From: a virus
Virus record (IMG/VR): IMGVR_UViG_3300009104_000153
Span: 1-20,129 of that record
Length of the DNA stretch: 20,129 nt
Strand: one strand, 5' to 3'
Below are positions 9,280 to 20,129 of the stretch, one piece after another; the first letter of the stretch is position 1, and every line of letters starts with the position of its first letter. A program made the translations under genes and the position numbers. Under the pieces are notes generated by a model, which saw nothing but the letters and a program-made list of their open reading frames with translations, did no database searches and was not told where the DNA came from.

Positions 9280-9488
9280 GCGAGTACCTGGACTTGATCG
9301 AACGCGTCGTCATGACCGCTGTCCAATGCTTCGCGGCGCTGATGCTCGCCGACGGCACCGGCCTGCTCTACAGCATCGACGCCGTCGAGGCCGCCGCGTG
9401 CGCCGGCATGGCCGCCGGCCTGTCCGTCATCAAGGGCTTCGCCGCGCAGAAGCTCGTCGGCGACAAGTCCGCTTCGCTCGTGAAGTGA
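9276..9488 (+). CDS. Holin (r1t-like, two membrane segments)
   Basis: A GTG start at 9276 is preceded by AAGGAGG at about eight bases, the strongest site in the lysis block. The 70-residue product has two hydrophobic segments, roughly 10-27 (VVMTAVQCFAALML) and 36-56 (AVEAAACAGMAAGLSVI), separated by a short turn, with a basic C-terminal tail (AQKLVGDKSASLVK). This layout matches the r1t holin family of Gram-positive phages. It would form membrane lesions that release the endolysin encoded just upstream. The start overlaps the endolysin stop. Confidence 0.82.
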   Translation: MSEYLDLIERVVMTAVQCFAALMLADGTGLLYSIDAVEAAACAGMAAGLSVIKGFAAQKLVGDKSASLVK

Positions 9489-11885: not shown

Positions 11886-12460
11886 CCCTGCTGTCATGCG
11901 CAACCGAGACCCAGGAGTTGCCGCTTACCGGGTCGCCACTCACAGCGGAACAGGTGCCGGCCGGCACGACGCCCCCGACGACGGTCTCATCCATGCCGCC
12001 GTCGGCCCTTCCACGATCGTCCCGGCCGGCCCCTGTTCCATCCACGACGGTGACCGCCGACGCCGCGCCCGTCCAGGTAAGCGTCACGCCGGCCACCACC
12101 ACCACCTCGACGACCTCGACGACGGTGCCGGCCGTCTGGGCCGCAGCCGTCGAGGGCTGGAGGCCGTATGTCGCCGTCTGGTTCCGACCGGAACACGTCG
12201 ACCTGGTCCTCGACCTCATTGCCTGCGAATCATCCGGCGACCCGGACGCGTACAACGACACCGAAGCGGCGAACGGTATGAACGCCGCCGGCCTGCTCCA
12301 GCACCTTGACGGCTACTGGCCGACCCGGGCGATCAGGGCGAACGCCGCCGGCTACGGCAACGGCGGCGACATCTTCAACCCGCTCGACCAGCTCGCCGTG
12401 TCCGCGTGGCTCGCCTACCAGACGCCGCAGGGCTTCGACCATTGGGAGTGTCACCGATGA
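11882..12460 (+). CDS. Exported transglycosylase-like (lysozyme-fold) protein
   Basis: The 192-residue product starts at ATG 11882 (ATGA overlap). A second in-frame ATG at 11855 would add nine residues and lengthen the hydrophobic lead before a lipobox-like LLSC; it lacks a ribosome binding site. Residues 20-85 are a Pro/Thr/Ser-rich linker ending TTTTSTTSTTVPAV. Residues 95-192 form a lysozyme-like domain: LIACESSGDPDAYN (catalytic E116), AAGLLQHLDGYWPTRA, GDIFNPLDQLAVSAWLAY and a final WECHR; C115 and C190 may bond. This resembles the peptidoglycan-active domains of resuscitation-promoting or SLT-like proteins in Acidimicrobiia. It is far from the lysis block, so a role in wall remodelling or host interaction is possible. 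The function as a muralytic enzyme is inferred from motifs. Confidence 0.78.
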   Translation: MTLLSCATETQELPLTGSPLTAEQVPAGTTPPTTVSSMPPSALPRSSRPAPVPSTTVTADAAPVQVSVTPATTTTSTTSTTVPAVWAAAVEGWRPYVAVWFRPEHVDLVLDLIACESSGDPDAYNDTEAANGMNAAGLLQHLDGYWPTRAIRANAAGYGNGGDIFNPLDQLAVSAWLAYQTPQGFDHWECHR

Positions 12461-13389
12461 GCCTGCTGCGCGCCGACGCCCTGTCCATTCCGCTCGCCGA
12501 CGACAGCGTCGACCTCGTCGTTACGAGCCCGCCGTACTTCGCCCTGCGTTCGTACCAAGATGGCGACGAGCATTACGACGGGCAGATCGGGTCGGAGCCG
12601 TCACCGCAGGAGTTCCTAGAAGCATTGTGGGCAGCGACGGTCGAGATGGTCCGGGTGGTGAAGCCGTCCGGGTCGATCTTCGTCAACCTCGGCGACAAGT
12701 ACGCCGGGTCGAACGGGCAGTCAGGTGGCCCGTCGCAACTTAGCGGTGCGACATACAGCCCGGACGGCACCCGGACGAAAGCAGCGAAGAAAGGCGGCTA
12801 CGTCCCCAAGACATCCGTGCGCACCAAGTCCCTGATGGGTCTGCCGTGGCGTTACGCCATCGGGTGCATCGACGACCTCGACCTGATCCTCCGCTCCGAG
12901 ATCGTCTGGTCGAAACCGAACGGCCTACCGGAGTCGGTCACCGACCGGGTGCGCCGCAGTCATGAACAGTGGTTCCATTTCACGTTGGAGCCTCGCTACT
13001 TCTCGGCGATCGACGAGATTCGCGAACATCACAAGGAGCCGGAACGGTCCACCAACCCGTTGGGCAAACTCCCCGGTTCGGTGTGGTCGATCCCATCCGA
13101 ACCACTCCAAGTCCCCGACCATCTCGGCGTGGATCATTTCGCAGCGTTCCCGCAGGAATGGCCGAGGCGTTTGATCCTCGGTTGGTCACCGCCTGACGGC
13201 GTGGTGCTCGACCCGTTCGTCGGAACCGGAACCGTCCCAATGGTCGCCAGGGCACTCGGGCGAACCGGTGTCGGCGTCGACCTGTCAGCCGACTACCTGC
13301 GCCTCGCCAACTGGCGGGTGTTCCAATCCGGTCACGCAGCTAAGACGATGCGACGCACCAACCAGGAGCGCCAGGGGTCGCTGCTGTGA
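12457..13389 (+). CDS. DNA methyltransferase, beta class (N6-adenine or N4-cytosine)
   Basis: ATG 12457 overlaps the previous stop and has GGGAGTG upstream. The 310-residue protein has the catalytic motif IV TSPPYF near the N-terminus (23-28) and the SAM-binding motif I DPFVGTGT near the C-terminus (252-259), followed by GVGVDLSADYLRLA. Motif IV before motif I defines the beta group. The middle region, including KSLMGLPWRYAI and WSKPNGLPESVTDR, fits site-specific methylases and contains the target recognition part. No restriction endonuclease gene is nearby, so it is an orphan. It most likely protects phage DNA from host restriction or marks DNA for replication or packaging. SPPY is compatible with either N4-cytosine or N6-adenine methylation, so the modified base cannot be settled by sequence alone. 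Confidence 0.93.
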   Translation: MSLLRADALSIPLADDSVDLVVTSPPYFALRSYQDGDEHYDGQIGSEPSPQEFLEALWAATVEMVRVVKPSGSIFVNLGDKYAGSNGQSGGPSQLSGATYSPDGTRTKAAKKGGYVPKTSVRTKSLMGLPWRYAIGCIDDLDLILRSEIVWSKPNGLPESVTDRVRRSHEQWFHFTLEPRYFSAIDEIREHHKEPERSTNPLGKLPGSVWSIPSEPLQVPDHLGVDHFAAFPQEWPRRLILGWSPPDGVVLDPFVGTGTVPMVARALGRTGVGVDLSADYLRLANWRVFQSGHAAKTMRRTNQERQGSLL

Positions 13390-14355: not shown

Positions 14356-14752
14356 CGACCTGCGCCGGCTCATGACCCGGCTCGCCGCATCAGCGCACCT
14401 GGTATCGGTCGAGCTCGACGACCTCCTGGTGCTGGCCTACGAGAACACCGGAGCCGGCGACCGCGTCCAGGTATCCGGCGGCGACATCGTCGACCTGCAC
14501 GCCGTCGGCGACCAACGGGCCCGCAACGCCCTCGACGGCATCAACCGGCACGCCGCGCCGCTGCTGCAGCACCTAGACAACGCGATCCGGTTGCTGCACG
14601 CGACCGGCCCGCAGGACCCGGCACCCCGCACCCGCCAGAAGGTCTCCAAGACGGAGCACCAGGAAGCCCTCGACGCGCAGGAACGCCGCCGAGCCCGCGG
14701 CGAATACACGCCGATCCGCGTCGTCCCGCAACCGAAACCCCGCATCCGCTGA
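14342..14752 (+). CDS. Helical protein, unknown (136 aa)
   Basis: ATG 14342 overlaps the previous gene by 14 bases; an in-frame ATG at 14372 is a possible alternative. The N-terminal half is helical (LRRLMTRLAASAHLVSVELDDLL), then comes GAGDRVQVSGGDIVDLHAVGDQRA, more helix (HAAPLLQHLDNAIRLLHA) and a basic, Pro-rich C-terminus (RVVPQPKPRIR). The helix plus DRVQVSGG pattern resembles uncharacterised actinophage proteins often found near WhiB-like or replication genes. There are no catalytic motifs. The stop overlaps the WhiB start (TGATG), so the two are probably co-translated and might work together. Confidence 0.6.
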   Translation: MSSDDDLRRLMTRLAASAHLVSVELDDLLVLAYENTGAGDRVQVSGGDIVDLHAVGDQRARNALDGINRHAAPLLQHLDNAIRLLHATGPQDPAPRTRQKVSKTEHQEALDAQERRRARGEYTPIRVVPQPKPRIR

Positions 14753-15231
14753 TGGACACCTACCACGAGTGCCGCCAATGCTCGGCACCTGACGGTTACA
14801 CCTGGTACGCCGACGACGGCTACGAGCTGTGCAAATACTGCGGCCACAAACGCATCCACGAGAACGCCTGGTTCAAGCGGGCCGCCTGCAAGGGCATGGA
14901 CCCCGACCTGTTCTTCCCTGAACGCGGCGAGCTCGACGCCGTCCGAGCAGCGAAGCAGGTGTGCGCCGCCTGCCCCGTCGCAGACGAGTGCCTGACCTAC
15001 GCCCTGGTCACCGTGCAGCGGTGGGGCATCTGGGGCGGCATGTCCGAAAAGCAGCGTCGCCGCGTCCGCAACCGCGTCGGCGAGATGGACGGCAACTGCT
15101 ACGTCCGACGCTGCCTGCATTGCCGCTCAGCGTTCAAGACGACGGTCCGCATCAAGAACTTCTGCTCGAGGTCGTGCTACTCCGCTCGTTACGGCGGCCG
15201 GCACCCGGCCCGCTGGAAGCGGCCGGCCTGA
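14752..15231 (+). CDS. WhiB-like transcription factor with flanking zinc-finger-like cysteine clusters
   Basis: The 159-residue protein contains a full WhiB core at about 40-110: C46, C71, C74 and C80 (the CxxCxxxxxC set for a 4Fe-4S cluster), the G-I-W-G-G turn at 92-96 and a basic end (KQRRRVRNR). Unusually, an N-terminal region has two CxxC pairs (C7/C10 and C27/C30), a zinc-ribbon-like layout. A C-terminal region has C121/C124 and C138/C142 in a finger-like arrangement. Phage WhiB proteins are usually about 70-120 aa, so this is extended at both ends. WhiB proteins bind sigma factor region 4 and shift host transcription, so this one may redirect host RNA polymerase. Two added metal sites are inferred from cysteine spacing. 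It is the last gene of the second operon. Confidence 0.88.
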   Translation: MDTYHECRQCSAPDGYTWYADDGYELCKYCGHKRIHENAWFKRAACKGMDPDLFFPERGELDAVRAAKQVCAACPVADECLTYALVTVQRWGIWGGMSEKQRRRVRNRVGEMDGNCYVRRCLHCRSAFKTTVRIKNFCSRSCYSARYGGRHPARWKRPA

Positions 15232-15287
15232 CATGTGTCGCGCACGGCGTCACCACGGCATGACACGATTGTGGTCGAGTGGGAACG
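15232..15287 (+). promoter_or_regulatory. Short gap between WhiB and HNH genes
   Basis: A 56-base spacer precedes the packaging/structural operon. It contains ACGATTGTGGT, loosely like the GACTATGGT before the second operon, but no clear -35. A late promoter could lie here or inside the WhiB gene. No terminator hairpin is apparent, so transcription may simply read through from WhiB. Confidence 0.25.
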
Positions 15288-15614
15288 ATGCGCCCCAAAG
15301 TGATCTGCCTCGAGGCCGGCTGCGGCAACCTGACCGACCAGCCGCCCCGCTGCGACGAACATTCGCAGCATCGCCTCCCCACTCATCCCGGCCGCATCGC
15401 CCGCACCCGCTACGACGCCGCCTGGAACCGCCTGTCGAAGCAGGCCCGCACCGAACAGCCGTGGTGCACCCGCTGCGGAGCGACCGACGACCTGACCGTC
15501 GACCACGTCATCCCCGGCTCGACCGCCGGCGGCGTCATGGTGCTGTGTCGCAGCTGCAACTCCCGCAAGTCCGGCCAGGATCGGCGGTTTCGCCGCACCC
15601 TCGACGGACTCTGA
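15288..15614 (+). CDS. HNH endonuclease next to terminase
   Basis: ATG 15288 is chosen over an in-frame GTG at 15279, as it has the closer GAGTGGGA. The 108-residue protein has an N-terminal small cysteine cluster (CLEAGCG, then CDEH) and an HNH domain. That domain shows PWCTRCGATDDLTVDHVIPGS, then VLCRSCNSRKSGQDRR, with two CxxC pairs for the structural zinc and DH as the catalytic start. HNH proteins beside terminase genes are needed for DNA packaging cleavage in HK97-like cos phages, where they act with the terminase complex. The setting directly before small terminase fits that role rather than a homing enzyme. Confidence 0.9.
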   Translation: MRPKVICLEAGCGNLTDQPPRCDEHSQHRLPTHPGRIARTRYDAAWNRLSKQARTEQPWCTRCGATDDLTVDHVIPGSTAGGVMVLCRSCNSRKSGQDRRFRRTLDGL

Positions 15615-15616
15615 CC

Positions 15617-15639
15617 GGGAGGGGTGCCCCCCCCTTTTT
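15617..15639 (+). terminator. Candidate terminator after the HNH gene
   Basis: The HNH stop is followed by a G-rich arm (GGGAGGG, 15617-15623), a GTGC loop and a C-rich arm, with one A-C mismatch, then five T residues (15635-15639). This could act as an intrinsic terminator or attenuator. The same G/C-rich stretch could also be part of a packaging site, so the assignment is tentative. Confidence 0.4.
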
Positions 15640-15719
15640 GAGGGGCCCCGCCGTGACCCGCAGCCCCCTGAGCCGTCCGTTTTCCGCTGCGAAAACCGGG
15701 GATGGGGGGTGATTCGGCT

Positions 15720-16172
15720 GTGACTGCCGGAAGGCCGCCGAAACCGATCGAGGAGAAGCTGAGAACCGGGAACCCCGGCCAGCGTCGCCTCCCCCAGCTG
15801 CACACCGTCGGCTCGACGCTGCCGAAGCCGCCGAAGCCACCCGGCCACCTCAAGAAGGCCGGCACCAAGGTGTGGGGCCAGGTGTGGACCGCGGCGCAGG
15901 TGTGGCTCGGCCCGTCCGACGTGCCGGCCGTAACGCTGTGCTGCGAGCTCGCCGACCAGGTCGACTCGTTGAAGCGGACGATGGCGGCGACCCGCAAGCC
16001 CGAGATGAAGCTGCAATGGCATTGGGCGGTGCAACGCAGCCAGAAGGAGCTGCTCGCCGCGTATTCGCAGCTCGGGTTGACGCCGACGGCGCGGGCGAAG
16101 CTCGGCCTGGTCGTCGCGCAGGCGGCCGAGACCGAGTCGAGGCTGACGCGGTTCTCGAACCGTGCCGGCTAA
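15720..16172 (+). CDS. Terminase small subunit (P27-like)
   Basis: GTG 15720 is preferred over ATG 15702, because the family's usual N-terminus begins here (GRPPKPIEEKLRTGNPGQRRLP) and GGGGGGTGA lies at a good distance. The 150-residue protein has the typical P27 layout: Pro/Lys-rich arm with HLKKAGTKVWGQVW, and helical middle and C-terminus (LGLTPTARAKLGLV). It recognises the packaging site on concatemeric DNA and recruits the large subunit, whose gene overlaps the end by 11 bases. The HNH gene upstream makes up the third part of the packaging set. Confidence 0.88.
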   Translation: MTAGRPPKPIEEKLRTGNPGQRRLPQLHTVGSTLPKPPKPPGHLKKAGTKVWGQVWTAAQVWLGPSDVPAVTLCCELADQVDSLKRTMAATRKPEMKLQWHWAVQRSQKELLAAYSQLGLTPTARAKLGLVVAQAAETESRLTRFSNRAG

Positions 16173-17613
16173 GACCGCCGCCCCGGCGTCGCTCGGCCCG
16201 CTCGTCGCCGAGTTCACCGAGGAGTTCGTCCGGCACACCCGCGGCGAGTACGCAGGCGAGCTCGTCGACCTCCGGCCCTGGCAGCGCGACATCCTCGACG
16301 GCCTGTTCGCCCTCGACGACGACGGCCTGTGGAAGCACCGCCAGGGCATGGTGATCCTGCCGCGCAAGTCCGGCAAGTCGCTGCTGCTGTCCGGCGTCGC
16401 GACCTGGGCGCTGTTCGCGTCCGGCGAACCAGGCTGCGAGGTCTACTGCGTCGCCGGGTCGAAGGATCAGGCGCGCATCGTGTTCCAAAACATCAAAGAC
16501 ACGATCGACGCCGACCCCGACCTGACGGCGGCCGCCGAAGTGTTCAAGGACGCGATCTCGGTGCCGTCGACCGGAGCGGTTTGCCGCGTCCTGTCGTCCG
16601 ACGGAGCCCTCGCGCACGGCCTGTCGCCCGTCGTGTCGATCGTCGACGAAACCTGGTGCCATCCCGACGGCGAGCTGTACGAAGCGCTCCTGTCCGGTTC
16701 CGGTGCCCGCCGCCAATCGCTTCTCGTCCACATCACGACCGCCGGTTCCGGCGAAGGAAACCCGCTGGCGAACCTCGTCGAGTACGACCGCCGCGTCCAG
16801 GCCGGCGAGGTCGACGATCCGACCTGGTGGTCTTGGTGGAACCCGCCGCACCCCGACGACGATCCGACCGACCCGGCGACCTGGGCGGCCGCGCACCCCG
16901 CGTTCGGCGACTGGATCACCGCCGAATACCTGCAGTCGCAGCTGAAGCAGCTACCGACCGCCGAGTTCAAGCGCCTCCACCTCGCCGCCTGGACCAGCAA
17001 CCGCGACGTGTGGCTCGAACCCCACCAGCTCGACCTGATCGGCACCTGCGAACCACTCACCGCCGACGACCACCCGGTGCTCGCCGTCGACGGTTCCTGG
17101 TCGTCGGACGCGTCCGCAGTCGTCGCCGCCACCGCCGACGGCCGCGTCGAGCTCCTCCACCTACAGGAGAAGCCGCTGGACGGGCCCGACAACTACCGGG
17201 TCGACATTCCCGAGCTGCTCGCCGCCGTCGTCGACCACGCCGAACGCCTCATGACCCGCGCCGTCATGTACGACCGGTACCTGATCGGACCGGCGATGCT
17301 CGCCCTCGGCGAGGACCCCGGCCTCCCCGTCGTCGAGTTCCCGCAGAACGCCCGGCGGATGGTGCCGGCCACCAAGAGGTTCGCCGACGCGCTCCTCGAC
17401 GGGCACCTCCAGGTCGTCGACAACGACCTGCGGCCGCAGCTGCTGCGCCACATCGAGAACTGTCGCCTGAAGGTCGACCGGCTCGGAGCCCGCATCGTCA
17501 AGGACCACACCGGGTCCTCGAAGAAGATCGACGCCGCCGTGTGCGCGGTCATGGCGTTCGACGCAGCCAACGACATCCCGTACATCGAACCCGTCACCCC
17601 GAGGATCTACTGA
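16162..17613 (+). CDS. Terminase large subunit (ATPase and nuclease)
   Basis: A GTG start at 16162 overlaps the small-subunit stop. The 483-residue protein has an ATPase half with Walker A (LPRKSGKS, 66-73) and Walker B (VVSIVDE, 157-163), then a linker with many Trp residues. Its RNase H-like nuclease half has metal-ligand candidates D310 (AVDGSW), D371 (MYDRY) and D457 (KKIDAAV). The enzyme cuts phage DNA and pumps it through the portal. Length and motifs match the HK97-type Terminase_1 family. Together with the adjacent HNH gene, this suggests cos-type packaging, though headful packaging cannot be excluded. Its stop overlaps the portal start (TGATG). Confidence 0.97.
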   Translation: MPAKTAAPASLGPLVAEFTEEFVRHTRGEYAGELVDLRPWQRDILDGLFALDDDGLWKHRQGMVILPRKSGKSLLLSGVATWALFASGEPGCEVYCVAGSKDQARIVFQNIKDTIDADPDLTAAAEVFKDAISVPSTGAVCRVLSSDGALAHGLSPVVSIVDETWCHPDGELYEALLSGSGARRQSLLVHITTAGSGEGNPLANLVEYDRRVQAGEVDDPTWWSWWNPPHPDDDPTDPATWAAAHPAFGDWITAEYLQSQLKQLPTAEFKRLHLAAWTSNRDVWLEPHQLDLIGTCEPLTADDHPVLAVDGSWSSDASAVVAATADGRVELLHLQEKPLDGPDNYRVDIPELLAAVVDHAERLMTRAVMYDRYLIGPAMLALGEDPGLPVVEFPQNARRMVPATKRFADALLDGHLQVVDNDLRPQLLRHIENCRLKVDRLGARIVKDHTGSSKKIDAAVCAVMAFDAANDIPYIEPVTPRIY

Positions 17614-19377: not shown

Positions 19378-20129
19378 ATGAAGCTGCTCGACCAGCTCGT
19401 CGAGGAGCGCGCAGAGATCGCCGACGCCATGTCGGCCGTCTGCGACGCCGCCGCCGACGAGACCCGCGACCTCTCCGACACGGAGGAGTCGAACCTGAAG
19501 GACCTGCACGCCCGGTCCGAGTCCCTGGACGCCCGCATCTCCGAGCTGCGCGACATCCAGCTGCGTAACGCCGAAGCCGCGAAGCTGCGCGCCGAGGTCA
19601 CCACGACCCCCGAGACCGCCGAGAAGGCCGTCGAGGTGCGCGTGTCGGCCGAGCCGCTCACCTACGGCGAGCACACCGACGCGTCGTTCTTCCGCGACGT
19701 GTTCGCGTCCCAGCACCGCCACGACCCGGCTGCCCAGGCCCGCATCGCCCGCCACACCGCGGAGATGGAGCTCGAGCACCGCGACGCCGGCACCGGAGCG
19801 TTCGCCGGCCTCGTCGTCCCGCAGTACCTGACCGCGATGGCCGCCGAGCTGGCCCGCGCCGGCCGGCCCACCGCGAACGTCTGCAACCGGCTGCCCCTGC
19901 CGGCCGACGGCATGACCATCAACGTGTCGCGCGTGACGACCGGTTCGACGACCGCCATCCAGGCGTCGGAGAACAGCGCCGTGTCCGAGACCGACATGGA
20001 CGACACGCTGCTGACCGTCAACGTCCGCACCGTCGCCGGCCAGCAGGACGTGTCCAGGCAGGCCCTCGAGCGTGGCACCGGCATCGACGCCCTCATCATG
20101 GGCGACCTGGCCGCCAGCTACGCCGCGAC
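19378..20129 (+). CDS. HK97-fold major capsid protein, N-terminal part (continues at 1-714)
   Basis: ATG 19378, with AAGGAG at eight bases, begins a frame that runs to the end of the window and, through the 119-base overlap, on to the stop at 712-714. The N-terminal 75 residues or so form a helical delta domain (LLDQLVEERAEIADAM, then LSDTEESNLKDLHARSESL), as in HK97 gp5, which acts as an internal scaffold and is removed by the protease. The N-arm and E-loop region follow (TGAFAGLVVPQYLTAMAAEL). The upstream protease gene fits this maturation. The 448-residue total is close to the family norm. Confidence 0.96.
   Translation, partial: MKLLDQLVEERAEIADAMSAVCDAAADETRDLSDTEESNLKDLHARSESLDARISELRDIQLRNAEAAKLRAEVTTTPETAEKAVEVRVSAEPLTYGEHTDASFFRDVFASQHRHDPAAQARIARHTAEMELEHRDAGTGAFAGLVVPQYLTAMAAELARAGRPTANVCNRLPLPADGMTINVSRVTTGSTTAIQASENSAVSETDMDDTLLTVNVRTVAGQQDVSRQALERGTGIDALIMGDLAASYAA
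20011..20129. repeat. Terminal direct repeat, right copy (circular contig join)
   Basis: This is identical to bases 1-119, as described for the left copy. Only one copy should be counted in the 20,010-bp circle. Confidence 0.95.

Follow-up and report, generated by a model that had tools for sequence, protein, structure and literature searches.

The window analysed here is the whole of the 20,129-nucleotide (nt) virus record IMGVR_UViG_3300009104_000153, and the gap at its positions 15615-15719, between an HNH endonuclease gene and the gene of the small terminase (TerS), is very likely the cohesive-end (cos) site of a small tailed phage with a packaging module of the HK97 type, in which HNH, TerS and the large terminase (TerL) stand together. 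An initial annotation had suggested such a site, and comparative sequence data now lend it support: the ends of related contigs cluster in this gap, and within the window's own clade they do so to the exact base. We predict a cohesive 3' overhang of 14 nt, CCGCAGCCCCCTGA, at 15658-15671 (plus strand), with the left starts of relatives equivalent to 15672 and the right end of one relative (L041) equivalent to 15657. HNH, TerS and TerL are arranged around the site in HK97-type order, and the contig ends of relatives indicate that their genomes end at exact bases between HNH and TerS. Very probably, the site represents an HK97-type 3' cos, which is a known kind.

The features of the gap by themselves are no proof of a cos and genome ends were therefore sought in relatives. 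Searches of IMG/VR yielded 30 contigs with TerL and 27 contigs with TerS. Among the 21 TerS loci of the window's clade (L050-L070), five (L054, L056, L059, L060, L062) have as first base the equivalent of 15672, and L156 provides a sixth exact start. Two further loci of the clade, L057 and L063, start 14 and 21 nt to the left of this base and L053 starts about 27 nt to the right of it, while L051, L055, L058 and L067 read across the gap and the other nine begin within TerS. L007 and L009 share their start base, are identical over 6260 nt and stem from different metagenomes. The L007 contig (19,044 bp, linear) has both of its ends in the gap. Its right end lies 28 nt past the HNH stop and reads ...CCCGAC (...GGGGGCCTAGCCCGAC); the right end of L041 stops after AC, at the equivalent of 15657. 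The gap-spanning sequence L005 (90.6% identical over 298 nt) carries 15 extra nt, CCACAGCCCCCTGAA, before the left start, and 15 nt are therefore missing between the ends of the L007 contig. End polishing of 3' overhangs during library preparation loses bases rather than doubling them, and the 10-15 nt missing between contig ends would be expected for 3' overhangs lost at this step.

The same pattern was seen in more distant relatives. A profile of the HNH protein retrieved 80 loci, 44 of which hold a contig right end; 40 of these have an in-frame HNH stop, and L042, L083, L106 and L116 were left out for having none. Right ends lay 28-110 nt past the HNH stop in 20 of the 40 loci (P = 7e-18 if ends were uniform), and 19 upstream left ends, which served as control, were scattered over 1-2671 nt. 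With a TerS profile we obtained 80 loci and 58 left ends, 22 of which lay 20-140 nt before TerS (P = 2e-16); the 16 right ends used as control were again scattered. Searching 12 left-end contigs with the HNH profile A1 gave no match. Among 20 further records, eight had a TerS match and five (G015, G017, G021, G024, G026) had both ends in the gap. Two of the five, G024 and G026 (33 kb each), are without exactly the 10 nt, CCCGACGCCC, that the spanning sequence L102 possesses. The spacing between ends is 12 nt in the L079/L081 group, and G017 loses no bases, its two ends sharing CTTTCG. Defined ends in the gap and the absence of 10-15 nt between them are supported by the sequences of relatives. 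The L007 contig, G015, G021, G024 and G026 are classed as linear in IMG/VR, a class described as often consisting of fragments, and seem to represent full-length genomes bearing both cos ends. In the group of L118/G024 and L132/G026, about 1.4 kb of other DNA separates HNH and the cos from TerS.

Two short motifs allowed us to transfer the ends to the window. We collected 29 contig starts, five of them added by hand, which reduced to 21 at 85% identity; ten more brought the set to 31 for counting an octamer. A loose pattern for octamers like CTGCGAAA was chosen after inspection of the starts. Within their first 80 nt, the 31 starts contained 24 occurrences of it, 19 of which had offset 15. As the window carries this octamer at 15687, the top-strand cut is predicted at 15671/15672. 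On the other side, 11 of 23 right-end contigs stop after AC (L041, L078, L084, L088, L105, L110, L111, L114, L116, L118, L132), L110 and L111 being identical over their last 300 nt. The window has a single AC in range, at 15656-15657, which places the bottom-strand nick at 15657/15658. A position weight matrix built from four starts of the clade ranked 15672 first of 39,972 positions, and a matrix from all 21 starts also ranked it first. A third element is a T tract (T5, 15635-15639, plus strand) to the left, separated from the predicted top-strand cut by 32 nt, a distance that is conserved. Fifteen spanning sequences were measurable; in 12 of them a run of T5-T7 stops 31-35 nt short of the predicted cut, and it is absent from L022, L102 and phage phiPsal1. 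This count leaves out L006 and L017, which begin too near the cut, and L087, in which the pattern was not found. The T run singled out by the initial annotation is thus conserved at a near-fixed distance.

Several observations weigh against the site as predicted. A matrix built from the 17 distant starts ranked 15672 only 385th of 39,972 positions. The octamer pattern is missing at offset 15 from 12 of the 31 contig starts near TerS, three of which (L056, G017, G015) show a variant there by eye, and the octamer itself, YNGCGAAA, is absent from HK97 and likewise from phiC31. More than one AC lies in range in L005, L045 and others. The right end of the clade depends on a single contig, and the end spacing of the clade, 14-15 nt, exceeds that of HK97 (10 nt). 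Moreover, the assembly of the window is circular and runs through the predicted site, which is compatible with cos DNA that is joined in the cell.

It is less probable, and still deserves serious weight, that the same cos has an overhang of 9-12 nt and that the sole right-end contig of the clade was trimmed by a few bases. Spacings of this size occur in G024/G026 with L102 (10 nt) and in the L079/L081 group (12 nt), as well as in HK97 (10 nt) and the Paenibacillus larvae phages (9 nt). However, L041 stops exactly after AC, as do 11 of the 23 right-end contigs, and six contigs fix the left starts. A terminator in the first part of the gap, named as an alternative in the initial annotation, would be an intrinsic one for the HNH transcript. 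Window positions 15612-15639 can fold at -12.0 kcal/mol and a T run follows, but the closest relative, L239, is without the GGGAGGGG arm and folds to -1.0 kcal/mol, L005 folds to -1.6 kcal/mol, the T run holds a near-fixed distance to the cut and a terminator scan did not list the site. As the GC hairpin is absent from L239 and L005, we rejected the terminator, which we consider improbable. Headful packaging, in which ends would pile up since the pac cut begins each series, fits the layout of TerS and TerL beside a recognition site that pac phages share; it yields no defined right end, whereas the right ends were sharp here and whole linear contigs had both ends in one gap, 10-15 nt apart, so that we hold it to be very improbable. 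Equally slight is the chance that the contig ends merely mark places where difficult sequence broke the assembly. The gap is rich in C and G and has a G run, but relatives whose gaps are AT-rich (L158, L169, L171, L172) show ends at this offset too, spanning contigs assemble through the gap and the control ends opposite are scattered.

A cos in the HNH-TerS gap agrees with what is known of isolated phages. The initial annotation held that phages of this type usually cut close to these genes, and the linear records of HK97, TG1, Samora and phiC31 indeed end between HNH and TerS. HK97 resembles the window in its gene order, HNH (gp74), cos, TerS and TerL, and in its GC-rich terminal stretch: the genome ends with ...AAATGAC, followed by CGCCGCCAAA, and starts with GTTTG, with HNH before the end and TerS at position 50. 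Its right end comes after GAC and hence after AC. According to the available text of PMC11331095, HK97 TerS binds cos at +15 to +29, with contacts at 16 and 21 and at an adjacent A-tract. The window has an element with G and an A-tract at about +15 to +29, and HK97 TerS is the closest match of the modelled window TerS. HK97 differs by a longer A-tract, by a spacing of 10 nt between its ends and by the absence of the T tract that the window shows at -33.

After phiPsal1, the Streptomyces phages phiC31, TG1 and Samora are the TerL group with named isolates that comes closest. They have a C-rich terminal stretch of 10 nt, CCCGGCCCCA, in common, which at their ends between HNH and TerS gives CCCGGCCCCA|GCTCGG: TG1 and Samora end with ...CAGCGATCCCGGCCCCA and start with GCTCGG, and phiC31 has the same ten bases at its start. 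As in the window, HNH lies close to the right end (about 50 nt before it) and TerS follows the left end (134-145 nt past it); unlike in the window, the right end comes after GAT and no octamer is present at +16. The Pontimonas phage phiPsal1 has HNH and TerS proteins related to those of the window and a junction that reads ...CTAC|CCGCCGCCTGA|T-N14-CCGCAGTT, its deposited record starting exactly at the predicted AC| boundary. This phage differs in being 31 kb long and in having been published as a circular map, in an account whose available text does not take up packaging. In the accessible descriptions of Paenibacillus larvae phages, the 3' overhang is CGACTGCCC (9 nt) and many of the phages have HNH at the genome end. 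At its predicted cos, the spanning sequence L148 shows these nine bases as well. Here, the differences are the 9-nt overhang and, in phage Fern, the lack of an octamer at +16.

How the cut might be made can be pictured by analogy with HK97. The octamer of the window occupies +16 to +23 relative to the cut, with G at +20 and A at +21 to +24, and we therefore propose a TerS recognition element at 15687-15701 (plus strand), in which the octamer (15687-15694) begins 15 nt past the cut and combines a G with an A-tract, as does the TerS site of HK97. A TerS ring would bind concatemeric DNA at this element and would bring TerL, with the HNH protein as helper, to the cut. There the top strand would be nicked at 15671/15672 and the bottom strand at 15657/15658, a stagger that would produce a 3' overhang of about 14 nt, CCGCAGCCCCCTGA. 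In the mature genome, TerS and TerL would then come first, at the left end, and HNH last, at the right end. For the window phage itself, we infer the cut, the polarity of the overhang, the protein responsible for each nick and the binding of TerS. For HK97, the available text of PMC9410871 reports that gp74 stimulates cutting at cos by TerL, and that of PMC11331095 raises the question of whether TerL and the HNH protein make one nick each. That the spacing of the ends varies while each side follows a motif of its own is relevant to this question. Tentatively, the two nicks may be set by independent recognition events, one on the side of HNH and AC and one on the side of TerS and the octamer, so that overhang length varies; many distantly related uncultivated HNH-TerS phages might then share a cos grammar consisting of a T tract (about -33), a nick of the bottom strand after AC (AC|), an overhang of 10-15 nt and a nick of the top strand before |N15-YNGCGAAA, and many 'linear' contigs might be complete genomes.

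For a group of uncultivated phages, these results supply a cos that is placed to the base and open to testing. They also suggest that public contig ends alone can place cos sites, a use for which a narrow literature search found no precedent. If this is true, some contigs labelled as linear and possibly partial represent whole genomes.

The remaining features of the gap fared unevenly. We rechecked the coordinates given in the initial annotation and found all of them exact, for C8, T5, GGGGCCCC, GTTTTC and GAAAAC. The run of eight C (15627-15634, plus strand) followed by T5 occurs once, with 0.00 occurrences expected from dinucleotide shuffles, and T5 at 15635-15639 is the sole plus-strand run of at least five T in the window. 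The C8 run is not conserved among relatives: only the homologue L239 retains C7 before the T run, and the bases at this place are CCCG, CCGG, CGGG or GGCC in five of six sequences compared, the window included. We also rejected the palindrome GGGGCCCC (15642-15649) as a functional part, as it was found once with 0.83 expected from the shuffles, an unremarkable chance level, and is not kept in relatives. The inverted repeat GTTTTC-N6-GAAAAC (15679-15696, arms at 15679-15684 and 15691-15696) overlaps the octamer. GTTTTC-N0-12-GAAAAC was found once with 0.00 expected, and loop and right arm contain the conserved octamer. The arms of the repeat vary in relatives, being ATTTC/GAAAT in L002/L005/L007, and no such repeat was seen in the aligned relatives L004 and L006. 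As a structured RNA, the gap folded no better than shuffled sequences (z = +0.84), and an Rfam search of it gave no match.

The genes on both sides of the gap lie on the plus strand. The HNH endonuclease gene (15279-15614) is the last gene before the right genome end and matches Pfam HNH_5 (E = 1.7e-7) and HNH (E = 4.8e-7); its profile also matched the solved HNH endonucleases 4h9d and 5h0m (E = 5e-4 to 9e-4). A structure model of this protein was too weak for use, with a predicted local distance difference test (pLDDT) score of 67. For TerS (15720-16172; Pfam Terminase_6, E = 1.4e-9), GTG 15720 is the most likely start codon and is common to relatives, with ATG 15702 as an in-frame alternative; a G run at 15704-15709, 10 nt before this GTG, is the probable ribosome-binding site of TerS. 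A sequence search of the PDB with TerS gave no match. HK97 TerS provided the five best PDB matches to the TerS structure model, with a probability of 0.99 but E values of 0.06-0.2. TerL (16162-17613) matches Pfam TerL_ATPase (E = 7.4e-17) and TerL_nuclease (E = 1.2e-8), and its nearest named phages are phiPsal1, TG1 and phiC31. At the DNA level, we found no similarity of the window to phage records.

The closest relative, L239, is a stretch within a metagenome-assembled genome (MAG) of Acidimicrobiales; its TerL is 94% identical and it keeps 65 of the 69 bases of 15634-15702. Together with L247 and L248 it forms a collinear, permuted relative inside a MAG contig of 107,921 bp, broken between window positions 9487 and 10646, and its flanks include ABC transporter and aminotransferase genes. 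This relative is probably a prophage, with Acidimicrobiales as the likely host. The window had no match to Pfam Phage_integrase (PF00589), though the MAG relative looks integrated; the search covered this one recombinase family. Positions 1-119 and 20011-20129 of the window overlap exactly over 119 bp inside the capsid gene and give a circular assembly of 20,010 bp. We rejected this repeat as physical ends in the form of direct terminal repeats, given that it falls within the capsid gene and resembles a k-mer overlap left by the assembler. The window further encodes a WhiB-like regulator (14752-15231), directly upstream of HNH, and a DNA methylase of the N6/N4 type (12406-13389).
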